From: Candidatus Geothermarchaeota archaeon
GTDB lineage: Archaea; Thermoproteota; Nitrososphaeria; Geothermarchaeales; JDFR-13
DNA: 62,813 nucleotides
Assembly: GCA_015523545.1 (NCBI GenBank)
Contig: WAKB01000003.1
Location: forward strand, 1-62,813
Direction: 5' to 3'
The translations under genes and the position numbers were made by a program. Under the pieces are notes generated by a model. That model was not told the DNA's origin. It did no database searches and saw only the letters and a program-made list of their open reading frames with translations. This document shows, piece by piece, positions 26,822 to 59,132 of this stretch. Every line of letters begins with the position of its first letter. Position 1 is the first letter of the stretch.

Positions 26822-27379
26822 ATGAGGTTGGGGGTTACTGGTACGCCGGGTACTGGTAAGACCACGATATCTAGGCTGCTTGGCGAGGCTCTGGGGCTTC
26901 CAGTCATCCATCTCGACGACATTATCATTGGGGAGGGGCTTGTCAAGGGGTTTGACGAGAGGCGTGGGAGCCTCGTGGCAGATGTGGAGAGGGTTACTGA
27001 GTCTGCCCCTAGGCTGGTCAGTATCGATGGTGTGTATGAGGGCTTATCAATAATCTATATCGAGGATCCCAGTGTCTTTGACAGGGTTGTCGTCCTTAGG
27101 TGTAGCCCATACGTGTTGGAGGAGCGGCTCAGGGCGAAGGGCTTCCCCGAGGAGAAGGTTAGGGAGAATGTTGAGGCTGAGATACTGGATATAGTCTATT
27201 CGGAGGCCCTCAGGATATATGGTGAGAAGGTCCTCCAGGTGGATAATACTGGGGATCCCAGGGAGGCTGTGGAGAGGATCATAGGTAAGATGGGTAGGGA
27301 AGGCTCTAGGTGTGACTCTGTGGACTGGCTGGGCCTGATATATGAGAGGGGTGATTTTCAACGCTTCTTCCGTGGCTAG
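26822..27379 (+). CDS. AK6/Fap7-type adenylate kinase
   Basis: Small P-loop NMP kinase, 185 residues. The P-loop GVTGTPGTGKTTISRLL is at the N terminus, HLDDIIIGEGLVKGFDERRGS is characteristic of the AK6/Fap7 group, and VLRCSPYVLEERLRAKGFPEEKVRENVEAE matches its LID and helix region. Eukaryotic Fap7 acts in maturation of the small ribosomal subunit with Rps14; archaeal homologs are thought to do the same. It overlaps the converging HerA-type gene by 4 bases. Confidence 0.85.
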   Translation: MRLGVTGTPGTGKTTISRLLGEALGLPVIHLDDIIIGEGLVKGFDERRGSLVADVERVTESAPRLVSIDGVYEGLSIIYIEDPSVFDRVVVLRCSPYVLEERLRAKGFPEEKVRENVEAEILDIVYSEALRIYGEKVLQVDNTGDPREAVERIIGKMGREGSRCDSVDWLGLIYERGDFQRFFRG

Positions 27380-28872
27380 ACATTAGGCTCTATCCTGACT
27401 GGGAATGGTAGTGGGTTCCTACTATCCTTGACTAGTGCCTCTCCCACTCCGAGCTGCTTAACATACTCTATCTGCTCCTCATTCATTGAGACGATGTTCC
27501 TGATGTATGTCAGGTCCTCCCACCCGGTTAGGCGGTGGATTATTACTAGCCCAGCGTTCTTCAGTGGGGCCTTCGCTATCTGGGAGGGGAACTGGGTTAT
27601 TATCGCTATCGCCTCGCCAAACTTACGTATCTCATCCATTATCTTCTCCGCCACTGTCGGTGGATCGTATTCTCTACGGGTTGGTATTAGGTAGCGGGCC
27701 TCCTCCAGGACTGTTACATGGCTTAGGCCCTTCATACCGCTCAGCCTCTGGTGGTTGAAGAGCCTCTTTAGGAGTATATATCCAAATATCTTCCTGAGGT
27801 TGACCTCGTGTATATGTCCAAGCTCTATCACCGTGTTCCTCTGGACTATGTCCTCTATCTTAATGGTCTCCCCCTGCCCGAATATCTTGGCTCCCTGGCC
27901 CGCCACGAGTTGTTTCAGCCTCCTAAGTAGGGCTGCCTTGGTCTCATGCTCGCTATAGGACTTTATGGGGAACTGTTCAATGATGCTTATCAATGCCCTT
28001 ATGTTGGGCTCCTTCTCACCTACGAGGTGGTATCTCGAGTATGTGGCCTCGAGGGCCATCTTGAAGAAGTATTGCTGTGGATGGGTGAATCCGTAGACCT
28101 CGCTGAATATGTCTGTGATTATGGATGCGCTGTCCTCTATGTCCCCCTCATCCTTTATGGGGTTGAGCACCGCCTCACCTAGCCCGGGCCTTATAACTAG
28201 GTCTACGTTCTTGAGCTTCGATGTATACTCGTTATGGTAGTCTAGGACTAAGTATGGGGTGTCCCTTGGGAGCTGGTTGAGTATAGTGGCTATCGTGGTG
28301 GTCTTGCCCATCCCTGTGGAGCCTATACATGCTATGTGGCTGGATAGCTGGTCTATGGGTATTAGGTAGTCCTCACCCGTGTCTACTAGTCTGCCCAGCC
28401 TTATAGTAGCCCTCCCAGGCCTGCTCTGAACGGGTAGTTTGAATAGTCCCCTAGGCTTCACCAGCTGTAGGTCTCCCCCCGACTCGAATCTTATGTAGTG
28501 TTCTCCCCTACCGCCGTTCCTCAGTCTCCACCTATATATCGTCGATATCTCTCCGTCGCCAACCAGCTCTACCTCGTAGTCGGGGAATGCTGTTAGGACT
28601 ATGTTCCTTATTGCCTGTGCCTTTGTGAGGGCGGCCTCCCTAGACTCTCCCCTGGTGACTATGTATAGGCCTTCATGCCTCCCGTCTACATAGTGTATTA
28701 TCTGTACAGGTATGTGGAGGTTCTTGAAGGCCTTGATCATGTTCCTGTAGGCGGTGACGTGTTGATAGGCCTTCACCCTCCCCTCATCTATCTCCGGGCT
28801 GCTCCCCAGTATCTTGACACCAGCCATATACTCCCTCTTCGACCCGTTTAGCCTAGGGATTAGCCTCTTCAT
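27376..28872 (-). CDS. HerA/VirB4-type ATPase of a secretion or DNA-transfer locus
   Basis: A 498-residue FtsK/HerA-superfamily ATPase. Walker A is IGSTGMGKTTT near residue 183, Walker B is VTVLEEARYLIPTRREYD near residue 385, and AIIDEIRKFGEAIAIITQFPSQ-like sequence (here KIMDEIRKFGEAIAIITQFP) carries the sensor region. The N-terminal 150 residues resemble the VirB4/CedB-type N domain. In crenarchaea, HerA/VirB4 ATPases of this kind power the Ced/Ted DNA-import systems. Here it is the last gene of a minus-strand operon with a mini-pilin, two half-size membrane proteins and a VirB11/PilB-type ATPase, so I infer a pilus-linked transport motor, not chromosome-repair HerA; no NurA, Mre11 or Rad50 gene is adjacent. 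Confidence 0.8.
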   Translation of the reverse strand: MKRLIPRLNGSKREYMAGVKILGSSPEIDEGRVKAYQHVTAYRNMIKAFKNLHIPVQIIHYVDGRHEGLYIVTRGESREAALTKAQAIRNIVLTAFPDYEVELVGDGEISTIYRWRLRNGGRGEHYIRFESGGDLQLVKPRGLFKLPVQSRPGRATIRLGRLVDTGEDYLIPIDQLSSHIACIGSTGMGKTTTIATILNQLPRDTPYLVLDYHNEYTSKLKNVDLVIRPGLGEAVLNPIKDEGDIEDSASIITDIFSEVYGFTHPQQYFFKMALEATYSRYHLVGEKEPNIRALISIIEQFPIKSYSEHETKAALLRRLKQLVAGQGAKIFGQGETIKIEDIVQRNTVIELGHIHEVNLRKIFGYILLKRLFNHQRLSGMKGLSHVTVLEEARYLIPTRREYDPPTVAEKIMDEIRKFGEAIAIITQFPSQIAKAPLKNAGLVIIHRLTGWEDLTYIRNIVSMNEEQIEYVKQLGVGEALVKDSRNPLPFPVRIEPNV

Positions 28873-28886
28873 CTATCCCTTCCCCT

Positions 28887-29066
28887 CTATAGGAATGGGA
28901 ATAGCGTGTCCCACCACCACTGTACGGCGTCGAAGAAGGCTTGGATAGCCTCTTGGATCTTCTCATAGATCATGTTGGCTGCCCCCATGGCTATCCCGAT
29001 CCCTAGTAGGGCTACTATGATCAGTAGGCCCTCCTCGATGATCTGTGCTCCACGCCTCCTCCTCAT
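28887..29066 (-). CDS. Flp-like mini prepilin, 59 residues
   Basis: The frame reads MRRRRG, then AQIIEEGLLIIVALLG, one hydrophobic helix, and an aromatic amphipathic end (QWWWDTLFPFL). Arg-rich leader, Gly at -1 and Glu at +5 of the mature protein exactly fit the type IV prepilin rule for Flp/Tad pilins and archaeal class III signal peptides. One membrane helix followed by only about 25 residues is the size of a Flp pilin. It lies 14 bases before the HerA/VirB4 gene and about 70 bases after the membrane-protein gene at 29140. The Ced pilin, as I recall it, has two helices and no such leader, so this is a different type. Confidence 0.75.
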   Translation of the reverse strand: MRRRRGAQIIEEGLLIIVALLGIGIAMGAANMIYEKIQEAIQAFFDAVQWWWDTLFPFL

Positions 29067-29139: not shown

Positions 29140-29646
29140 CTATCCGAGTAGTGGTCTTGTGAATCCGGTGCCTAGGATAGCTGCGAATGTGTAAATCACT
29201 ATGTTTCTGAGTAGGCTCCTCCTGTCTGGGCCGTGGAAGATCCATGTGATGAGTGCTGTCTGTAGTAGGCCGAAGAGCCTGTAGATCAGGGTGTCTGCCC
29301 CTCCAAATGTTATTAATAGGTTCTCGGTTATCGTTATCCCGCTGATAACTTCTAGGATGGGTATCGTCGCCCCGAGTGTGAAGGCTGCTGTGGCTGATAG
29401 TATGGATAGCCTCCTTATTATCTGCCGCTCCTTGTTCCTCAGCCTCCCTAGGAACTTCTCCTGGAGTATAACAGTCTTTGTGTAGTTGCGTATAACCTCG
29501 GCCCTCCTAGATATTGCCTCTAGATCGGTCTCCACGTCCCGACCCCTGATATAGTTTCTCAGCCTCTCTAGTTCCCCCTCCTCGTAAAGAGCTCTTGCCA
29601 CTGAGTTACCCTTGAGTATCTTGTCTAGTATCTCTATCAGCCCCAT
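29140..29646 (-). CDS. Half-size platform-like membrane protein (TadC/T2SF-like)
   Basis: A 168-residue protein with a cytoplasmic helical region (residues about 1-75, SVARALYEEGELERLRNYI and RNYTKTVILQEKFLGRLRNKE) followed by three hydrophobic segments near residues 80-100, 110-132 and 143-160. The order, a short helical bundle then membrane helices, resembles one half of the T2SF fold found in GspF, TadB/TadC and archaeal FlaJ platforms. I infer it is one of two subunits of a split platform; sequence similarity is weak by eye. It starts immediately after the stop of the gene at 29647, with no gap. Confidence 0.55.
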   Translation of the reverse strand: MGLIEILDKILKGNSVARALYEEGELERLRNYIRGRDVETDLEAISRRAEVIRNYTKTVILQEKFLGRLRNKERQIIRRLSILSATAAFTLGATIPILEVISGITITENLLITFGGADTLIYRLFGLLQTALITWIFHGPDRRSLLRNIVIYTFAAILGTGFTRPLLG

Positions 29647-30114
29647 CTACCTAGCCACCCTTGTCAGTATCTTTGCTAGTAGGGCCTGGAGTATGGGTAT
29701 TGGTAGGAGTATCCAGGGGCCTAGTGGGATCGTGGCTATTAGTGCTAGGAGGGGTGGGAACACTGTTACGGCGCTTATGAGTGCTGCCTTGACGTCTAGG
29801 TTCTCCACCTCCCTCTCCAGCCTGTCTATCTCTAGCTCTATGTCTGATGCCGTTGTCTCAACAGCTATCTCTGGGTCTCCAGGGACCTCGGCCCCACCTA
29901 CTCTGTCTATATCCTCGAAAAGGAGGTTCTTCTCCAGGTCTCCCCTGGATATTAGGGCAGCCCTGAGTGGGCTTCCCGAGACTATGTATTCGGATAGCTC
30001 CATGAACCTTGTGGCTATTCCCGAGCCATCTATGGCCTCCCATACCCCTCTGCCTATGGTTAGTGCCGCTGCTATGTGGCTGAGTATGAGGAGGATTATT
30101 AGTACTGTCTCCAT
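29647..30114 (-). CDS. Half-size platform-like membrane protein (TadB/T2SF-like)
   Basis: A 155-residue protein. An N-terminal membrane helix (residues about 2-22) precedes a helical soluble region with RFMELSEYIVSGSPLRAAL, reminiscent of the T2SF pattern around a small-residue G.pl..aL motif, then an acidic coiled stretch (EIDRLEREVENL) and two membrane segments near residues 108-150. With the gene at 29140 it may form a split TadB/TadC-type platform. It overlaps the upstream ATPase by 16 nt. An alternative is a novel inner-membrane component unrelated to T2SF. Confidence 0.55.
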   Translation of the reverse strand: METVLIILLILSHIAAALTIGRGVWEAIDGSGIATRFMELSEYIVSGSPLRAALISRGDLEKNLLFEDIDRVGGAEVPGDPEIAVETTASDIELEIDRLEREVENLDVKAALISAVTVFPPLLALIATIPLGPWILLPIPILQALLAKILTRVAR

Positions 30115-31295
30115 GCTACTAACCCCTCCTCCAGCTCTTCTGAGAGGTAGATGTCTCTGAGGTATCTCCTGCCTGTGGGGAGGTCTCTAGCGGTTATTAG
30201 TACTAGGCCCACCTGTTTCAATGCGGCTTCGTATCCCTCTCCGAAGCCCCTCCCAAGCCTCATTATGAGGCTCTCTATGTCGCTGGCGTGTATCGTGGCC
30301 ATGATCCTTATACCCATGAGTAGGGTCTCTAGCATGTGTTGGATATCGTTGTTTGTTATGACCTCACCATATACTACGTAGTCTGGACTCCTCCTCAGGT
30401 TGAATAGCGTCTGTATCCCTCTCTTCTCAGACTCCACTATCCCCGACTGTCTATAGTAGATGTGGTGGTAGCCATGTGGCCTGAGATCCTCTGTCTCCCT
30501 AGCCTCTTCCAGTATGAGTATCCTGAGGTGTCCCGGCAGTTCCTTTAGTATGGCGTTGAGGAGTGTCGTCTTCCCGCTGTTGGGCTCGCCCATAATGAGT
30601 ATTGATGGATATCTCCTGAGCTGCTCCTGTATGGTGATCCTCTGCTCCTCGTCCATGAAGCCCCTCTCAACTAGGCCCTCCAGGGTGTTACCGCTCCCCA
30701 TGTGCCTCCTTATGACGGCGTATGTCTCTCCATGGGTTAGTGGGAATGTGTCGAGGACTATTCTGAACCTATCCCTGACTGTTGATATGTCGGCCTCTAT
30801 CGAGCCTCCCCTCCTCGATACTCCCTCGGCAACTATTAGCTCGAGGATGCGTCTCAGGGCTGTTAGGCCCTCCTCCCCAATATACATGTTTGTTTTGTAG
30901 CTTGCACCGTCCATCCTCCTAACCCTGATCTCATTGTCGCCTCCGAGTATGTAGATCTCCTGGTTCTCGGGGTCTGTCATCAGTATGTGGAGGGGGAGGA
31001 GGCCTATTGAGTCCCAGAAGGCTATCTCTCCCATCTCTTCATTAGTATTTTCAGGGCCATCCAGCCTCTCCAATGCCTCGTGGATGTTCCTCCTGAGGAT
31101 CTCCTCTAGGGTGGGGTATCTGCTCAGCCCCCTGAATACTGGTAATTCCCTAGATAGTTCCTGGATATGTGGAGATGCCTCAAGGATCTCTGGGGTGAAG
31201 CCGTAGTATAGTGTTCCACCCCTCCTTGTGAGGGCTATATACCTGGTTATCCTAGCCTCCCACTCCTCGAGGATAGGTATGGAGCCAAGCCTCAT
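30099..31295 (-). CDS. VirB11/PilB-type secretion ATPase
   Basis: A 398-residue hexameric-type secretion NTPase that should power pilus assembly or secretion from the cytoplasmic side. Walker A is MGEPNSGKTTLLNAIL near residue 237, the Asp box is ILEEARETEDL, Walker B is SPDYVVYGEVITN near residue 310, and the His box is IMATIHASDIESLIMRL near residue 340. It is shorter and differs in sequence from the pilus ATPase at 56222, so the organism has at least two systems. It is the first gene of the five-gene minus-strand operon. Confidence 0.85.
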   Translation of the reverse strand: MRLGSIPILEEWEARITRYIALTRRGGTLYYGFTPEILEASPHIQELSRELPVFRGLSRYPTLEEILRRNIHEALERLDGPENTNEEMGEIAFWDSIGLLPLHILMTDPENQEIYILGGDNEIRVRRMDGASYKTNMYIGEEGLTALRRILELIVAEGVSRRGGSIEADISTVRDRFRIVLDTFPLTHGETYAVIRRHMGSGNTLEGLVERGFMDEEQRITIQEQLRRYPSILIMGEPNSGKTTLLNAILKELPGHLRILILEEARETEDLRPHGYHHIYYRQSGIVESEKRGIQTLFNLRRSPDYVVYGEVITNNDIQHMLETLLMGIRIMATIHASDIESLIMRLGRGFGEGYEAALKQVGLVLITARDLPTGRRYLRDIYLSEELEEGLVAWRQY

Positions 31296-31386: not shown

Positions 31387-31512
31387 ATGAATAGGGTTCT
31401 GAGACTGTTTGGAGATACTGCTTTGAAGGCTCTGATGCTAGGCCTAGTTATACTGGGCTTTCTCCACCTGGCGGGGGTGGTTAGGGATTGGATAGGTATG
31501 CTGCGACCCTAA
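31387..31512 (+). CDS. Tiny membrane protein, 41 residues
   Basis: The frame gives an N-terminal MNRVLRLFGDTALKALM, one membrane helix (LGLVILGFLHLAGVV) and a short basic end DWIGMLRP. No family is recognised. It is the first gene of the plus-strand arm divergent from the secretion operon, with a predicted leaderless start. It overlaps the next frame by 25 nt. Coding status rests on the open frame, promoter position and tight packing with similar genes. Confidence 0.5.
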   Translation: MNRVLRLFGDTALKALMLGLVILGFLHLAGVVRDWIGMLRP

Positions 31513-31670
31513 TACTCGAGGTTGTATTGGTGGTTGTGCTGTCGGGGATCGCATTGGTGATCGGTGATCGTGTACTGGAGATTCTCGGCGTGGCTGTCTG
31601 TAGGCCTGAGGAGGTTGTTGTGGATAGGGGTCTATACTACGTTGTGTATAGGGTGGGTATGAGGTGTTAG
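31488..31670 (+). CDS. Small membrane protein, about 60 residues
   Basis: One long hydrophobic helix (TLILEVVLVVVLSGIALVIG, residues about 8-27) and a short C-terminal domain with two cysteines (VCRPEEVVVDRGLYYVVYRV, ending MRC). Glu at the start of the helix (LILEVV) is pilin-like, but there is no clear leader before it. The start is uncertain: TTG 31488 is the best available. It is co-oriented and overlapping with both neighbours. Confidence 0.5.
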   Translation: MDRYAATLILEVVLVVVLSGIALVIGDRVLEILGVAVCRPEEVVVDRGLYYVVYRVGMRC

Positions 31671-31783
31671 ACGACTTTATAGATACCCTGTTGAGCATTG
31701 CTCTAGCCGGGATATTTCTCCTGGTTCTCTCCCTATTGGCCCTCGTCCTTCTTCTCCTCATTGGGGTGTTGCTTGGTGCTTAG
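31664..31783 (+). CDS. Tiny membrane protein, 39 residues
   Basis: From GTG 31664 the frame encodes MLDDFIDTLLSIALAGIF then a highly hydrophobic helix of Leu, Val and Ala to the stop. It is almost entirely a single membrane span with an acidic N terminus. Both ends overlap the adjacent frames by 7-8 bases, as expected for translationally coupled genes. Function is unknown. Confidence 0.45.
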   Translation: MLDDFIDTLLSIALAGIFLLVLSLLALVLLLLIGVLLGA

Positions 31784-32042
31784 TAGGATCTTGGCACTCG
31801 TCGTGGGTGTCTCGGTACTGGTTATGAGTATTGGGGGGTTCATCCTCCTCCTGGTAGATTATCTCTCCTTCAGACCTGTTCTCGACCCTTGTGAGGAGTT
31901 GTTGGCTGATGTTGGTCTGGGTAGAGTGGGTGTGGATGGTGTATGGATTGAGGATGGTCTAATACATGTCTCTACAGGGGGCTCAGTGGTGATCGTCTCT
32001 CCTGATGGGAGGGTGGTTGGATGCGGAGGGCTGGATACCTAG
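31776..32042 (+). CDS. Single-pass membrane protein with small outer domain
   Basis: From GTG 31776 it has 88 residues. Residues about 3-30 (RILALVVGVSVLVMSIGGFI) form a membrane helix. The rest is a small domain with two cysteines (DPCEELLADVG and VVGCGGLDT) and short beta-like repeats (VWIEDGLIHVSTGGSVVIVS). Size and layout resemble a minor pilin without a canonical leader. It overlaps the next gene by 22 nt. Confidence 0.55.
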   Translation: MLSRILALVVGVSVLVMSIGGFILLLVDYLSFRPVLDPCEELLADVGLGRVGVDGVWIEDGLIHVSTGGSVVIVSPDGRVVGCGGLDT

Positions 32043-32503
32043 GTATCTATCTCGCAATATTCATCGTTGTGGCTGTATTCATGGCTGCTACGATCTTCAT
32101 CCTATATAGTGTGGATCCCACTGCTAGGGGGTATGACGAGTATGCCGTCGATGTTGTCGGGGTCTATGCGGCTATGGAGTGTCTAGGTATTGATGGGTAT
32201 AGGCCGCCCTACGGTGATGCCGAGTCGTATGTCGAGGATGGCATGATCGTTGTCGAGGTCAGGGTTGGCCAGTATAGATATGTTGGATATGTGGATCTCT
32301 ATAGCCAGAACTGTAGGCTTCTTAGGAACTACTCTATGGCCTCGGGCTTATCTGTAGCTGTGGAGTCTTCAGGCTGCTCCTCCTGGATTATCCCTGTCTT
32401 GATTGCTAGGTATCTCTCTAGGGGGTCTAGGATCTCCTCGTTATCCCCATACTCCGCCTCCTCATCCTGTGACCTGGTAACTAGTTTATGGACCTTTCTA
32501 TAG
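32021..32503 (+). CDS. Pseudopilin-like membrane protein
   Basis: Up to 160 residues from ATG 32021. The N terminus MRRAGYLGIYLAIFIVVAVF has a short basic leader followed by a membrane helix, like a minor pilin, then a small domain with two cysteines (MECLGIDGYRPPYGD and SQNCRLLRNY). Beyond about residue 105 the frame runs antisense to the gene at 32329-32778 and turns Ser-rich, which looks like non-genuine sequence. A frameshift or a missed stop near 32330 may explain this; the real protein may be about 105-110 residues. Confidence 0.5.
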   Translation: MRRAGYLGIYLAIFIVVAVFMAATIFILYSVDPTARGYDEYAVDVVGVYAAMECLGIDGYRPPYGDAESYVEDGMIVVEVRVGQYRYVGYVDLYSQNCRLLRNYSMASGLSVAVESSGCSSWIIPVLIARYLSRGSRISSLSPYSASSSCDLVTSLWTFL

Positions 32504-32778
32504 CTTACCCTCTTACCCAGCTCCCTGTCCAGCCTCTCGATGAGCTCCTTCACCGAGACTATCTCGCCGTTCTTCTTTAGGACTAGGTATGTCGCCGCTA
32601 TTAGGACCTCGTATCTAGTTGGGCTCAGTCCTCGCCTCTCCAGCTTCACCACATACTCCTTGATCTCCCTACCCCACCTCTCTGATATCCCTAGTGCCCT
32701 TAGTAGCCTTGTGATGTTGTCGAGCCTGTGGTCAACCAGACTATTCCCTAGCATCTCCACCACCCTGTAGCTCCCCAT
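32329..32778 (-). CDS. Cyclin-fold protein resembling a TFB core repeat
   Basis: A 149-residue protein. Its centre, LGISERWGREIKEYVVKL then GLSPTRYEVLIAATYLVLKKNG and VSVKELIERLDRELGKRVSYRKVHKLV, fits the pattern of one cyclin repeat of transcription factor B, where helices read out an IY.....G.s....aAa.ly.a.r pattern. It lacks the N-terminal zinc ribbon and a second repeat. The C-terminal 35 residues are acidic and probably disordered. It could be a divergent TFB-like regulator of the adjacent locus; this is inference. Confidence 0.5.
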   Translation of the reverse strand: MGSYRVVEMLGNSLVDHRLDNITRLLRALGISERWGREIKEYVVKLERRGLSPTRYEVLIAATYLVLKKNGEIVSVKELIERLDRELGKRVSYRKVHKLVTRSQDEEAEYGDNEEILDPLERYLAIKTGIIQEEQPEDSTATDKPEAIE

Positions 32779-53327: not shown

Positions 53328-53373
53328 GTCCCCCTTTTAAGACGAGCATAACCCGGCTTTACGGGTGATATCC

Positions 53374-53778
53374 ATGGCGTCGAGGCGTGGGATATCCCAC
53401 TTCCTAGAGGTCGTGATACTTGTGGGCCTCGTGGGTACCCTGGGTATGCTGATCTACAGCGGTGCTCTCGACCTCTTCGCTGGCTGGGGCGATGTTAAGC
53501 AGGTGACTATACAGTCCACATACCTGATCAATGATACGCTGAATATAGTCGTCTCTAACAAGGGCTCGACCACTGTTGAGATAGATAGTGTGGGTGTATA
53601 CTTCATAAACGGGACACTACTTGGACAGGCGAGTGGGCCTGGTAAGATAGGTCCTGGGAAGGTCGGTAAGTTCACGCTCACGGTGCCTCTAGGAGCGTTG
53701 CAGGAGGGTGACCTGGTCGACATCGTGATCTCGACAGGCGACGGCTCGGCCTTCAAGTTCAGGGTTGCTGTGCAGTGA
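53374..53778 (+). CDS. Type IV pilin (archaeal class III signal)
   Basis: A 134-residue secreted pilin. MASRRG then ISHFLEVVILVGLVGTLG is a class III prepilin leader and helix (basic residues, Gly before cleavage, Glu near the start of the helix). The rest is a beta-rich globular domain with NDTLNIVVSNKGSTTVEID. It opens the type IV pilus operon, followed after 6 bases by another small membrane protein. It is probably the major subunit, given the first position. Confidence 0.8.
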   Translation: MASRRGISHFLEVVILVGLVGTLGMLIYSGALDLFAGWGDVKQVTIQSTYLINDTLNIVVSNKGSTTVEIDSVGVYFINGTLLGQASGPGKIGPGKVGKFTLTVPLGALQEGDLVDIVISTGDGSAFKFRVAVQ

Positions 53779-53784
53779 TGGGCC

Positions 53785-54195
53785 ATGGCCTCCAACATGC
53801 TGGGCGAATCCATCCTACTCTTTATATCCGTCTCCCTCCTGGGGATGGGGGTGGTCAGCATATACCAGCCTAGCCTAAACATACTGGGCCTAGGGGCTGA
53901 GGAGGAGGTTAGGGATGGATACTCATATGGATACCATGTCTCGATACTCTTCCTCCGTGACGGCTATCTATACCTCCTCAATGATGGCCGTGAGATCGGG
54001 GAGGTATCAACGATATATGTGGACGGCTCCCCACTACAGCCTCCCTACGAGGTCTATGTAGAGGGGCAGTGGATACTCTCTAGCTCCCTCCCTAAGGGGG
54101 GTATACTGAGGATACCCGTTGCCCAGGCCCCTGGTGAGGTTATCCTACTGGGTGATGGATACGTGATACGTGCCCGGGGTGATGCGTATGGCTAG
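53785..54195 (+). CDS. Pilin-like or stator-like membrane protein
   Basis: A 136-residue protein. MASNMLGESILLFISVSLLG is a short N terminus and a hydrophobic helix; GESILL gives a Gly followed by a Glu at +1 and not the +5 place, and no basic residue, so it is not a standard prepilin. The outer part is beta-rich (YGYHVSILFLRDGYLYLLNDG, GGILRIPVAQAPGEVILLGDG). It resembles FlaF/FlaG-type accessory proteins of archaella in size and layout. It overlaps the next gene by 14 nt. Confidence 0.6.
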   Translation: MASNMLGESILLFISVSLLGMGVVSIYQPSLNILGLGAEEEVRDGYSYGYHVSILFLRDGYLYLLNDGREIGEVSTIYVDGSPLQPPYEVYVEGQWILSSSLPKGGILRIPVAQAPGEVILLGDGYVIRARGDAYG

Positions 54196-56209
54196 GAGGG
54201 GCTTCTCAAACGTCTTGGTGGCCGGTGTGATACTACTCCTGGCAGCCACAATATTCACGGCCTACATGGTCTACCTAGACAGTGGGGCATATAGGGTGTC
54301 AGAGCTGGGACGCTCCGTGGAGAGGAGTGTCTATAGGGCTGGGGAGGAGTTGACCGCCTATCTAGACGGTGGAACAATAGTCCTACGCAACAGTGGCGAG
54401 ACCCCACTCAGAGTGGAGTATCTCGTGGTCCTCAGGAATGGGGAGGTATCCTTCGAGGAGGTGGGTATAGGGCTGCCACCGGGTGGTGAGGACTATATAC
54501 AGGCGCCCCTAGGTGGATACCCCCTCTACCTCATAACTGAGAGGGGCAGGGTCTTCCCACTGGGTGGCCAGGACCCGACTGGTGGGGGAGGCTCAGGCGG
54601 CGTCAACAACTTCTACACCTCTTGGGTGAACGAGACGACCATAATTATACATGGGGATCAAGACCCATTCAACCAGTCTGCATATGAGAGGGTCGAGAGG
54701 CTTGAGCGTGGCATAGCACTCTTCCGGGGTGACGCGGGCTATGCGGTGATAGACCTTATAGAGAACAGGACTCTCTATGAGGGGGTTAGGATGGTCATAC
54801 CTACTAGGGATGGATTGACACTGGCCACTAGTAGGGGTGTCTTTATAGAGGGTGTATACACTCTGTCCTGGAGGCCTCCCCTCTACGTCGGCTACGACTA
54901 CATGGTTCTGGGCGGTGTTAACACGGTTATCGTAGGTGCCGATATAGGTGTATTGACCCTCCCATCCCCAGGTAGGCTGATCTTCAATGGGAATAGGACT
55001 TACTACATGTGGCTCGACGGTGAGGTGAATGGATTGTGGCGCCATGGACTACTCTCGATAGACCCTATGAACATAAGTCTACGGGAGACTTACTATGTGG
55101 ACCTACCAACAAAAATCCTCTTTGGGGACGAGTGGTTCAGGCTACACAATTTTAACGCCTACTGGATAGTTGACGATGGCTCTAAACCGGTAAGGATCGT
55201 TATCACAGCTAAGGATCCCTCCATAACTGGCTGGATGGGTATGGTCGCAACCCTCAGGGAATATCTCTCTGGCGTGTATATAGCCGATGGGATACGCTAC
55301 ACCGATGATGGGTATATAGAGGGTATCCAATATGACCAGGCGTCATCAACGGTTGGTGGGAGCGGCTTCCCCCTATTCTTCAACACCGGCCTACACCAGG
55401 GCCAGGATAGGATGACGTATAACCTGGTTGGTGAGGGGAGGATAGGCCTCCTCCTCCAATACACCATTAGGGGCTCAGGACAGTCAACACTTGGGGAAAG
55501 TAGTATAGTCCTCCGTCTAGAGTCTCAGCAGGGATATGTGGAGCTTTTTCTCAACGCCTCCTGGGACGGTGGCCTTGAGTGGAGTATAGGCCTGGATACA
55601 GGTGGTGGAGCCGCTGAGATCAGGAGTGGGAGTGTCGCATCAGGTGGATGGATACTCCTATCCATATTCCCAGACACCTCTCTAGGCATATACACGGCTA
55701 ATGACCTTGTCGGGCTATACAGCGTCTCGCTCTCCCCACCTTATCGACTGGTGGTTATGAACAGCTCCGCCGCCAGTTTCTCGCCATACATAACAGTGGA
55801 AGTCTTTATGCTGATTGTTGATCCCGAGTCTTGGGTGGTCCATGGCAACTACTATGGATATGCTGTCTCCGACATTCAGAATAAGCCCACGATCCTACTC
55901 CCATACTTCTACGGTGCCGTTGGTATACGCTTCACTGGGGATGTGTACTTCTCTAGCTATGGGCCAGTTGCGGTCTATAACTACTGGGAGCTCCCCAACG
56001 TCTATATGCTCGAGCCACCTATGCACAGGGTAACCTCCCTAAGGGATGAGGATACGGTTGGTGTCTATATCCTAGAGTCTCCATACCGTAGGCTGGATGT
56101 CTATACCGGGCTATACATGGACTGGGACGTCATCCCCTACACAGAGTTCTACCTAGTCGTCTCGATACATCCCAAGGCCCTACTCGTTAGGAAGATGCCC
56201 TATGCATAG
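54182..56209 (+). CDS. Large pilin-like adhesin
   Basis: A 675-residue protein with a pilin-type N terminus, MRMARRG then FSNVLVAGVILLLAATIFTA, followed by a long extracellular part. After about residue 125 a Gly-rich linker (GGQDPTGGGGSGG) leads to a beta-rich region with many N-x-S/T sites. ATG 54182 is preferred; GTG 54170 and GTG 54179 and ATG 54188 are possible. The size is five times a normal pilin, so it probably sits at the pilus tip or is a surface adhesin attached to the pilus. The match to any adhesin family is not seen. Confidence 0.7.
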   Translation: MRMARRGFSNVLVAGVILLLAATIFTAYMVYLDSGAYRVSELGRSVERSVYRAGEELTAYLDGGTIVLRNSGETPLRVEYLVVLRNGEVSFEEVGIGLPPGGEDYIQAPLGGYPLYLITERGRVFPLGGQDPTGGGGSGGVNNFYTSWVNETTIIIHGDQDPFNQSAYERVERLERGIALFRGDAGYAVIDLIENRTLYEGVRMVIPTRDGLTLATSRGVFIEGVYTLSWRPPLYVGYDYMVLGGVNTVIVGADIGVLTLPSPGRLIFNGNRTYYMWLDGEVNGLWRHGLLSIDPMNISLRETYYVDLPTKILFGDEWFRLHNFNAYWIVDDGSKPVRIVITAKDPSITGWMGMVATLREYLSGVYIADGIRYTDDGYIEGIQYDQASSTVGGSGFPLFFNTGLHQGQDRMTYNLVGEGRIGLLLQYTIRGSGQSTLGESSIVLRLESQQGYVELFLNASWDGGLEWSIGLDTGGGAAEIRSGSVASGGWILLSIFPDTSLGIYTANDLVGLYSVSLSPPYRLVVMNSSAASFSPYITVEVFMLIVDPESWVVHGNYYGYAVSDIQNKPTILLPYFYGAVGIRFTGDVYFSSYGPVAVYNYWELPNVYMLEPPMHRVTSLRDEDTVGVYILESPYRRLDVYTGLYMDWDVIPYTEFYLVVSIHPKALLVRKMPYA

Positions 56210-56221
56210 GGGGTGGAAGAC

Positions 56222-57568
56222 ATGATTCTGGATAGGTATAAGGTGGTAGCCAGCTATAGGGTGCCGTCCGGGAGGGAGTATAGGACCTACTTCATGGTTG
56301 AGATACATAGGGAGGGTGATAAGGGATACTACCTAGTCACTGAGCCCTATGAGGACCGCCTCATAGCAGAGGCCATGGATATACTCGCGAAGCTAGAGGA
56401 TATGATCGGCTATGACGAGTCTTTCTTCGAGGATCCCATGGACTACTTGATGGGGCTGTATAACGATCGATATGTGGAGGAGAGTGAAGATGGTGTATAT
56501 GCCCTCTCACTCAGGGGGGTTGTGGAGCATGTCATCATCAAGGAGGTGCTGGGCTACTCATACCTGACGCCCCTACTTGCTGATGAAGATGTGGAGGATG
56601 TCGTCCTCTCGGCTCCAAACACACCTATCCAGGTCTGGCATAGGCGCTACCCGGAGCTTGGGTGGATAGATACCAGTATAACGCCTGGTGAGGAGGAGGT
56701 TAACAGGATGGTTAGGCGCCTGGCGTTCAGGGCTGGTAAGACGATCAGTATCCTACAGCCAGTTATGGAGGGTATCCTCCCTGAGAGGTATAGGGTTACG
56801 GCAACATGGATGGGTGAGGTCTCCCCGAGGGGGAGTAGCTTCACGATAAGGAAGTTCCGCTGGAGCCCGCTTAGACTGTCCGACCTGGTTGCTAGCGGCT
56901 TCATACCTGGCTACCTAGCATCCTTCCTCCTCCAGATGATGCTTGATAAGGCCTTCATTATGATCATAGGCCCCTCTGGGAGTGGGAAGACCACCCTCCT
57001 CAACGCCCTACTCCTAGAGATACCTAGCAACAGGAGGGTCGTGACTGTTGAGGAGACGCCTGAGATAAACCTTATGGATAGACCAGGATGGAAGCCCCTC
57101 TCTACTAGGTGGGACGCGGATCCCGAGGCTGAGATGGAGCGTCTACTGAGAACTGTTCTTAGGGAGAGGGCAGACTATATAGCCGTCGGTGAGAGCCGTG
57201 GAAGGGAGGTGAGGCTCGTCTTTCAGGCAGCTGCCACTGGCCATGGATGCCTAACCACCTTCCACGCCTCGACACTTAGGGAGCTACAGTCCCGCCTAGT
57301 ATCAAGCCCGATAAAGCTTGACAGGGACGTCGCTGGCCTCCTCGACGTGGTGGTTGTCCTCGAGATTAATGGGGAGAGTAGGAGGTATGTGAAGGAGGTC
57401 TACCTCAGGAGAGATGAGAGGTGGCTCCTCCTATATAGTAGGGGGATGCCTAGGAAGAGGTTCTACGAGGCGATAGCGGAGATGTATCCCAAGGAGCTGG
57501 TGTCCAGGGTTGAGACTGGTGAGGAGCTGGTGGTGGGTGTGGATGGCTCTCAGGGAGAGGGTAGGTAG
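56222..57568 (+). CDS. Type IV pilus assembly ATPase (PilB/GspE-type)
   Basis: A 448-residue archaeal secretion ATPase. Walker A is IMIIGPSGSGKTTLLNALL near residue 248, the Asp box is VTVEETPEINL, Walker B is RADYIAVGESRGREV near residue 320, and the His box is TTFHASTLRELQSRL. ATG 56222 with GGGGGTGG upstream. It overlaps the platform gene by 26 nt. It is closer to AapE/FlaI-type ATPases than to the one at 30099. Confidence 0.9.
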   Translation: MILDRYKVVASYRVPSGREYRTYFMVEIHREGDKGYYLVTEPYEDRLIAEAMDILAKLEDMIGYDESFFEDPMDYLMGLYNDRYVEESEDGVYALSLRGVVEHVIIKEVLGYSYLTPLLADEDVEDVVLSAPNTPIQVWHRRYPELGWIDTSITPGEEEVNRMVRRLAFRAGKTISILQPVMEGILPERYRVTATWMGEVSPRGSSFTIRKFRWSPLRLSDLVASGFIPGYLASFLLQMMLDKAFIMIIGPSGSGKTTLLNALLLEIPSNRRVVTVEETPEINLMDRPGWKPLSTRWDADPEAEMERLLRTVLRERADYIAVGESRGREVRLVFQAAATGHGCLTTFHASTLRELQSRLVSSPIKLDRDVAGLLDVVVVLEINGESRRYVKEVYLRRDERWLLLYSRGMPRKRFYEAIAEMYPKELVSRVETGEELVVGVDGSQGEGR

Positions 57569-59132
57569 GCTCTCGAGGATATTCAGCTTTAGCAGTGATG
57601 AGAGGCTCTCCCGATTCCTGGCTATGGGGGTAGCCAGTAGGAGGGAGATGTACATACTAGGAGTAGTTATGATCCTATCGTCGGCAGCCTCTCTATTCAT
57701 AGTGCTGAGGACGCTTGGCGTCGACCCCCTATACTCGGGGATAGCCTCGCTCTCCCTATCTATCCTCCTTCTCCCCCTGCTGCCTAGGATGTATAGGTCG
57801 GTGGTTAGTGATGTCTATGGTAGGTGGCTGGCTAGGGAGGAGCCGATAACGCTCCTGGTATTCACGATATATTCTCGGAGGCTCTCCCTAGAGAGGATCC
57901 TACAGATGTTTGCCGAGGGCTATATAGGCAGGGTGATACCTAGGACCGCTAGGTTCTTCAGATACATACTCGCCCGTAGCTTCGTCTCACGTGAGACTGT
58001 TGACAACGTGTTATCCAGGTCTCTAGACCTAGTCCCCCATGATGGCCTCCGCCGCTATATCTTCAACTTTGTCAGGCTTCGCAGCGTTGGGGGTGATGTG
58101 TATAGCTACTCTAGCCAGGCATTGCTAGACCTTTACCAGGAGCTTAGGAGGAGGTGGATAGGGACGTGGTCATCGATGGCCGCATACCTCGAAGGTATAA
58201 TACTGATCTACGGACTCTTCCCAACGATCCTCTCCAGCCTAGTCTTCGTACTTGGCTATAGGAATACGATTACCGTCTTCACGGTCATGATGATCTTCTA
58301 CCCGATATTCACCTTCCTGGTCTACCTACTCTTCGATAGGTATAACGTGCATGATCCTATAGAGACTAGGCATGGCTTCTCAAGGATCTCCATGCTGATG
58401 CTAGCTGGATCCCCAGCCACTATATATCTGCTCTACAGGTATACCGGTGACATATTCCTATCCTCCTCACTCGTACTTGGCATGTCGCTCCTCCCAAGCT
58501 TCATCATACAGGCCAGGATGCTCTATAGGGAGGTTGAGGAGGAGGCGGGCCTACTAGCCCTATCAACCCAGATGGCCGACCTCATGGAGGGTGGGATGGG
58601 TGTTGTCGAGGCTATCAAGAGGATAGACCTGGGAGGTATACCTGAGCGGCTGGCGAGGGAGGTTAGGCGTATGAGGCATCTGCTGGACAAGGGGCTTGAG
58701 CCTAGGGATTATATGGAGGGTGGGAAGGCCTACCGGCTCTTCAGGATAGCCCTCTCAGAGTCGATGGCCTCTGGAGGAGGGGCCGTCGAGCTAGCCACTC
58801 TGAGGGAGCTTCTTAAGAGCTTCCTCGACGTGAGCCGTCTTAAGAGGGCTGCCTTCTACATCGCGTTGGCCTCCTCGATAGCCGTCCTCCTCCTAGGTGG
58901 GTACTCCCTCAGCATAGTATTTTCGATAATCACATCGGTTGAGGGGGATCTAGCCCACATCTTCATACCTGGCTCGATAGAGACTCTATACACCTATGCG
59001 AAGGCATTCCTCCTCATGGGGAGTATCTACATGGGCCTACTCCTAGGGAAGCTGATATTCGGGAGCTTCCGCAACGTACTGGCGTTGACACCCCTCTTAC
59101 TGACATCGGCGGCCGTCTACCTATTAATCTAA
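57543..59132 (+). CDS. Type IV pilus platform protein (TadC/FlaJ-like)
   Basis: A 529-residue integral membrane protein. Membrane segments are seen near residues 38-80 (ILGVVMILSSAASLFIVLRT), 230-290, and at the C terminus (IAVLLLGGYSLSIVFSIIT and LFIAL-like LLLTSAAVYLLI). Two T2SF-type cytoplasmic helical regions lie between them (LSLERILQMFAEGYIGRVIP; LSTQMADLMEGGMGVVEAIK). This is the full-size two-domain archaeal platform, in contrast to the half-size proteins at 29140-30114. ATG 57543 is the start. Confidence 0.88.
   Translation: MALRERVGRLSRIFSFSSDERLSRFLAMGVASRREMYILGVVMILSSAASLFIVLRTLGVDPLYSGIASLSLSILLLPLLPRMYRSVVSDVYGRWLAREEPITLLVFTIYSRRLSLERILQMFAEGYIGRVIPRTARFFRYILARSFVSRETVDNVLSRSLDLVPHDGLRRYIFNFVRLRSVGGDVYSYSSQALLDLYQELRRRWIGTWSSMAAYLEGIILIYGLFPTILSSLVFVLGYRNTITVFTVMMIFYPIFTFLVYLLFDRYNVHDPIETRHGFSRISMLMLAGSPATIYLLYRYTGDIFLSSSLVLGMSLLPSFIIQARMLYREVEEEAGLLALSTQMADLMEGGMGVVEAIKRIDLGGIPERLAREVRRMRHLLDKGLEPRDYMEGGKAYRLFRIALSESMASGGGAVELATLRELLKSFLDVSRLKRAAFYIALASSIAVLLLGGYSLSIVFSIITSVEGDLAHIFIPGSIETLYTYAKAFLLMGSIYMGLLLGKLIFGSFRNVLALTPLLLTSAAVYLLI

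Follow-up and report, generated by a model that had tools for sequence, protein, structure and literature searches.

How DNA is taken up or exchanged by archaea outside Sulfolobales and Thermoproteales is largely unknown. In Saccharolobus islandicus, CedD, a protein of the Ced system, is essential for the import of DNA, not for its export (Wu et al. 2025, PMC11868833), and the pilins of the Ced and Ted systems are small proteins of the VirB2 type, connected with DNA transfer and accompanied by a HerA/VirB4-type ATPase (Beltran et al. 2023, PMC9905601). In Tad and Epd pili, the platform corresponds to two one-domain genes (PMC6668835); natural transformation in M. luteus depends on Tad/Flp genes (PMC4322843), and the title of another paper (PMC8513845) announces Tad-pilus-dependent DNA uptake in Liberibacter. 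Finally, the published census of archaeal pili left certain motor ATPase loci pilin-less; the loci of Thermoproteales subclade 4D (arCOG05558, arCOG05557/13890, arCOG05559) associate a T2SSE ATPase, a membrane protein and a TFIIB, without any pilin being found (Makarova et al. 2016, PMC4858521).

The operon that we describe here lies in a window (the whole stretch of DNA analysed, 62,813 nucleotides) of contig WAKB01000003.1 from a Candidatus Geothermarchaeota archaeon, and encodes a T2SSE-family motor ATPase, two membrane proteins (tmB and tmC), a putative prepilin of 59 residues and an ATPase related to CedD. It resembles the Tad/Flp (type IVc) and archaeal Epd-like pili in its very short single-helix pilin and its TadA-like motor, and, as in the Tad/Flp order tadA-tadB-tadC-flp (PMC4322843), two small membrane proteins stand between motor and pilin. 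Unlike Tad/Flp loci, it shows no significant T2SSF match and ends with a CedD-type ATPase gene; moreover, the Flp site reads G/XXXXEY (PMC4322843), whereas the operon pilin has E and not Y at +6, and the Pfam Flp_Fap model is matched by one of 14 members (E 0.0029, under the cut-off) and not by the protein of the window.

Among named proteins, CedD, from the DNA-import system of Sulfolobales and Desulfurococcales, comes closest to the product of the last operon gene, but the cedD gene of Pyrolobus has no adjoining pilus operon, and CedB was not found in the genome that carries the operon. The Ced and Ted pili likewise combine a small archaeal pilin (CedA1, TedC) with a HerA/VirB4-type ATPase; these pilins are VirB2-like, however, whereas that of the operon has a type-IV prepilin signature, a single hydrophobic helix and a T2SSE motor. 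Subclade 4D shares with the operon a T2SSE ATPase, a small membrane protein of unclear kinship to TadC and a TFIIB gene (a TFIIB-type gene being present in many of the operon loci as well), but neither a pilin nor a CedD-type ATPase has been reported there. We found neither the pilin nor an operon joining it to a CedD-type ATPase described in the open-access literature (subscription papers and preprints were outside the scope of this search). What is new here is the presence of a CedD-type pump in the operon of a T4P-type pilus, the type IV pilus (T4P) kind itself being known. The operon provides a concrete and conserved gene set in which a CedD-type pump is passed on jointly with a tiny, easily missed pilin and its motor, and it makes testable the idea that a single machine captures DNA by means of a pilus and imports it by means of CedD.

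A short conserved pilin gene

The open reading frame (ORF) is located at 28887..29066 on the minus strand, with its ATG at 29066 and its stop ending at 28887. Its translation, MRRRRG followed by AQIIEEGLLIIVALLGIGIAMGAANMIYEKIQEAIQAFFDAVQWWWDTLFPFL, has 59 residues, and the predicted cleavage after MRRRRG would leave a mature protein of 53, with G at -1 and E at +5 of the predicted site. The protein has a single hydrophobic helix, with a mean hydropathy of 2.34 over the best 19 residues, and its C-terminal part is an amphipathic aromatic tail (hydropathy maximum 0.64). A prepilin rule demanding at least two K/R, then G/A, four unspecified residues, E and a hydrophobic 17-mer is met by only one of the window's 232 ORFs of 45-130 aa, the present frame; the number of matches expected by chance, from residue shuffling, is 0.055 per window. 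The gene is present in a single copy in its genome (G000; 1.15 Mb, 17 contigs, 89.95% complete). Searches of Pfam and NCBIfam with the 59-residue protein gave no above-threshold match, and the pilin profile produced only chance matches against the sequences of the PDB.

An initial annotation, made from sequence alone, had proposed a frame of 59 residues at this place, which held exactly, and had read it as a short prepilin with G before the cleavage site, E at +5, one helix and an aromatic tail, which translation and hydropathy confirm. It had further called the layout Flp-like and placed the gene in one operon with an ATPase of the HerA/VirB4 type. The core of this reading holds, but the protein is not a strict Flp pilin (E at +6, similarity below the Pfam Flp cut-off), and the "HerA operon" contains an ATPase of the CedD type, not the HerA of DNA repair; the pilus motor ATPase and the two candidate platform proteins of the same operon had been missed.

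The same annotation considered that its reading would be refuted if the frame, or its G and E, were not conserved in relatives, and suggested looking for orthologues through the adjoining membrane genes. This was done, and the finding passed: a first search, with the neighbouring membrane protein as query, recovered four relatives with the same gene order, each carrying a short motif-bearing frame at the same place. Frame and synteny are kept in the sister species G006 (98% identity), in G004 and G005 (67-71%) and in G001 (about 40%). Of the 400 genomes of the class, 45 matched a profile of five pilins at E <= 0.01, the last few weakly, and the pilin is present in 11/11 genomes of family f1; a profile of 14 rows found it in 28 of 398 genomes of the phylum. 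The signature is stable: all 52 distinct homologues have E at +5, all 52 have E at +6, and 51 have G or A at -1 (G 39, A 12, C 1); the length of the mature pilin varies only from 53 to 56 residues across 14 aligned members. The motif G/A-x-Q-L/I-I/V-E-E could be used to find pilins that have been overlooked.

Between the window and G006, the pilin gene shows 10 synonymous differences and 1 non-synonymous difference (dN/dS 0.024). The corresponding ratio is 0.033 in the CedD-type ATPase and reaches 0.16 in tmB and tmC, the membrane neighbours; the pilin is conserved more strongly than these two. Because frame and motif are kept and dN/dS is so low, we conclude that this frame is a gene under strong purifying selection. 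The ORF is a real gene, and its product is very likely the prepilin of a T4P-type system.

Organisation and distribution of the operon

The five genes are transcribed from the minus strand in the order T2SSE ATPase (31295-30099), tmB (30114-29647), tmC (29646-29140), prepilin (29066-28887) and HerA/VirB4-type ATPase (28872-27376). There is an overlap of 16 nt between the T2SSE and tmB genes and no gap between tmB and tmC; the CedD-type ATPase gene begins 14 nt past the stop of the pilin gene. The same five-gene order is present in loci of families f1, f3, f5, f8 and f11 of the class and, in the rest of the phylum, in families f29, f40, f53 and f49, as well as in f30 with a single membrane gene; the operon is conserved across one class and beyond. 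In f1, it is flanked on both sides by housekeeping genes at fixed positions (PAC2-family, LSm-type, kinase, succinyl-CoA ligase). The loci of f48 and f68 have the same kind of pilin and motor without an adjacent CedD-type gene, so that the pump is not always linked to the pilin.

The loci L134 and L136 encode short pilins with the motif GSP(L/I)LEE in operons with a T2SSE gene and two membrane genes, without an adjacent CedD-type gene; these may represent a sub-type.

The motor ATPase

The first gene of the operon (30099..31295, minus strand) encodes a T2SSE-family secretion/pilus motor ATPase of 398 aa (Pfam T2SSE 1.7e-15; NCBIfam TadA-type 1.8e-17 and FlaI 1.4e-15), an assignment also supported by its orthologues. 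Its best named NCBIfam families are TadA-type, TrbB and FlaI, and for the orthologues FlaI or TadA-type scores first, above VirB11. The genome encodes two further T2SSE-family ATPases, one on contig C1 and the other, of 451 aa, in a conventional archaeal T4P locus of the window (53365-59132, plus strand), together with prepilin-like proteins of 137, 136 and 679 aa and a TadC-type platform protein of 540 aa. This locus has a T2SSE motor and prepilins, as does the short-pilin operon, but differs from it by pilins of 136-679 aa, by a single two-domain platform protein of 540 aa and by the absence of a CedD-type gene.

The CedD-type ATPase

The last gene (27376..28872, minus strand) encodes a pumping ATPase of the HerA/VirB4 superfamily (498 aa; Pfam DUF87 1.1e-14), which we assign to the CedD type from NCBIfam scores, a phylogenetic tree and neighbours common with Pyrolobus cedD. 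It scores 163.9 bits with the NCBIfam model of CedD, against 61.9 for HerA_Thermprot, 33.5 for CedB and 20.3 for VirB4, and the seven other members tested likewise have CedD as their top NCBIfam match (160-218 bits). None of the operon ATPases scored reaches the equivalog cut-off of the CedD model (NF053655, 600 bits); the CedD of Pyrolobus remains under it too, at 226.8 bits.

The outgroups of the tree were the repair HerA of G022 and four bacterial loci. The latter came from a contig search with an ATPase profile, whose patterns were too degenerate and which yielded five loci in all, the four bacterial ones and one Pyrolobus cedD. In the maximum-likelihood tree, a 100/99 branch separates two sides: the repair HerA of G022 stands on one, together with the HerA of bacteria, and on the other are the operon ATPases, Pyrolobus CedD and three further rows; the exact place of Pyrolobus CedD is unsure because of its long branch. 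For the last gene of the operon, CedD is a nearer relative than repair HerA, CedB or VirB4. Two candidate assignments were rejected: the last gene as the repair helicase HerA, on account of the CedD and HerA scores and of the tree, and as CedD a match to the CedD model in G022, which is a repair HerA beside nuclease-like, Mre11-like and Rad50-like genes.

The neighbourhood points in the same direction, with the reservation that the comparison rests on one named cedD locus only. In Pyrolobus, cedD is followed by a convergent overlapping kinase gene of the same kind as in the operon loci (E 4e-17), and a homologous PAC2-family gene is located 2.6 kb upstream (E 7e-18). Considering together scores, tree and common neighbours, we think that the last gene of the operon is likely orthologous to crenarchaeal cedD. 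The convergent overlapping pair of a CedD-type ATPase gene and an adenylate-kinase-like gene can be seen both in the Pyrolobus MAG (L060 4605-6710) and in the window (26822-28872).

The operon ATPases of relatives outside the class have hydrophobic N-termini, as has CedD (PMC11868833); that of the window has no obvious N-terminal membrane segment. In family f1, the matches of the CedB and VirB4 models were either to the CedD-type gene or limited to a short P-loop stretch, so that the CedD-type ring, if DNA is moved at all, may act alone.

Membrane proteins and prepilin peptidase

Both tmB (29647..30114, minus strand, 155 aa) and tmC (29140..29646, minus strand, 168 aa) occupy the place of a split TadB/TadC platform, and could be the two halves of one of the T2SSF type, tmB with a sub-threshold match to the first T2SSF domain and tmC to the second. 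The T2SSF matches are weak, being observed in 4/10 longer relatives of the two proteins with E 0.02-0.75. When the two were aligned with the TadC family of the genome itself, tmB was placed inside the first T2SSF-type half (P 0.016) and tmC where the second half has its start motif (P 0.01); the hhalign probability was below 5% in each case. Their AlphaFold models (pLDDT 75 for tmB, 79 for tmC) combine membrane helices with one long helix and with small ones, and have no significant match among PDB structures; the T2SSF-type assignment is an inference.

A search with the Pfam prepilin peptidase model gave no match in the genus. There is nevertheless a protein of 143 aa with a GxGD motif and a two-aspartate layout (G000:C1:176623-177051, minus strand; L146 1348-1779), GEGD being the form in G006, with a G000 copy 94% identical to it and further copies in G004 and G001. 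Its profile link to peptidases is weak in G006 (E 0.003) and better in G001 (1.4e-6), and it is much smaller than the archaeal prepilin peptidases of sister genera (about 210-240 aa). We infer from its sequence that the genome carries an aspartic mini prepilin peptidase of the GxGD type.

Possible function and alternative hypotheses

Since the pilin is encoded beside its own motor and an ATPase related to CedD, the operon may encode a previously undescribed DNA-uptake pilus. In this hypothesis, which we regard as the best reading, a minimal archaeal type IV filament built along Tad-like lines would have the ORF product as its major pilin; the small prepilin peptidase would probably cut after MRRRRG to give an essentially single-helix subunit of 53 residues; the T2SSE ATPase, acting on tmB and tmC, would polymerise the filament and perhaps retract it; the pilus would capture DNA or DNA-donor cells, and the CedD-type ring-shaped pump would move captured DNA inward, the whole forming a one-operon machine for DNA uptake or exchange. 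The conserved gene with its prepilin signature, the operon, the identity of both ATPases and the kinship with CedD are shown; cleavage, filament formation, the platform role of tmB and tmC and DNA as the cargo are inferred. Taken as a whole, this reading of a minimal Tad-like archaeal T4P with a built-in CedD-type DNA translocase seems to us as likely to be wrong as right. Against it are the lack of direct evidence for DNA transport, the sub-threshold homology of tmB and tmC, CedD scores under 600 bits, the failure to find CedB, and the f48 and f68 loci where the pump is not adjacent.

The most serious alternative is an ordinary T4P for adhesion or aggregation, reduced in size, in which the CedD-type ATPase would aid assembly or be merely co-transcribed, no DNA being moved; by analogy with what has been proposed for VirB4, the ATPase could pull pilin from the membrane. 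Known archaeal T4P are mostly adhesive, which favours this view, as do the FlaI/TadA-type motor and the existence of certain loci without an adjacent CedD-type gene. However, the CedD-type gene is tightly linked as the last gene in most loci, with the spacing noted above in the window, it is as constrained as the pilin gene in terms of dN/dS, and the genome already owns a conventional T4P locus. We are inclined to think that this alternative is not correct, without being able to put it aside.

A T4SS-like conjugative or Ced/Ted apparatus, with a pilin of the VirB2/CedA1/TedC type, the T2SSE ATPase as VirB11 and the last ATPase as VirB4, appears unlikely. VirB11 and VirB4 do belong to the T2SSE and HerA/VirB4 families, and Ced/Ted pilins are small (PMC9905601). 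But the operon pilins have one hydrophobic helix and an amphipathic second half (maximum mean hydropathy 0.2-1.0), whereas CedA1 has two predicted transmembrane segments; the signature of basic residues, G/A, four residues and EE is invariant; the motor scores higher with FlaI/TadA than with VirB11; and no CedB or VirB4 was found in family f1 apart from the operon ATPase. A two-helix conjugative pilin (VirB2-type) was considered as a candidate and rejected from the hydropathy profile.

Part of an integrated virus or mobile element is a very unlikely origin for the locus: HerA-type ATPases and small membrane proteins are indeed common in archaeal mobile elements, but the housekeeping flanks at fixed positions on both sides across f1 contradict this hypothesis, as does the deep vertical conservation. 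As for a chance frame without product, which the shortness of the ORF and the lack of an above-threshold family match might suggest, it is refuted by conservation (dN/dS, invariant residues in 52 homologues, kept place in the operon) and can be practically excluded.

Coming back to the DNA-uptake pilus, a bolder version of it is possible, though less likely than not. The operon would be a self-contained archaeal competence or DNA-exchange machine, with T4P-type pilus and CedD-type pump as one unit, and from such a unit the CedD of Sulfolobales and Desulfurococcales would derive, the pump and its chromosomal neighbours having been kept and the pilus genes lost; members of the pilin family may also turn out to be what the 'pilin-less' T2SSE/TFIIB loci of Thermoproteales lack. 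If this were true, DNA import by Ced/Ups would be a reshuffling of an older pilus-pump operon.

Genes divergent from the operon

Across the loci, about three to five small single-helix proteins are encoded divergently from the operon. In the window, these include a membrane protein of 60 aa (31488..31670, plus strand; possible minor pilin or accessory protein), to which a protein of 60-74 aa corresponds in position in relatives, a protein of 93 aa (31761..32042, plus strand; possible minor pilin), also with positional counterparts there, and a minor-pilin-like protein of 160 aa (32021..32503, plus strand). The outermost of these proteins, that of 160 aa in the window, has a prepilin-like start, MRRAG in the window and MRRG, MQRRA or MGRRA elsewhere (RRG/RRA-type starts), and the whole group resembles minor pilins.

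Where related loci carry a TFIIB-type gene, the window and G006 have a protein of 141-149 aa. That of the window (32329..32778, minus strand, 149 aa) has no demonstrable similarity to TFIIB, including the TFIIB-type proteins of the related loci, and its assignment rests on position only; as no homology is shown, we do not call it TFIIB. A divergent TFIIB-type gene is present upstream of the ATPase gene in L008, L009, L010, L040, L044, L045, L050-L057 and L136. In Sulfolobus, UV light induces the TFB paralogue TFB3 along with the ups genes (PMC5817253), which offers, by analogy, a parallel to a TFIIB-type gene beside a pilus operon, and no more than that.

The minor-pilin-like gene at 32021-32503 (plus strand) encodes 160 aa in the window and 109 aa in the sister species G006, a difference that could come from a lost stop or from a sequencing error.
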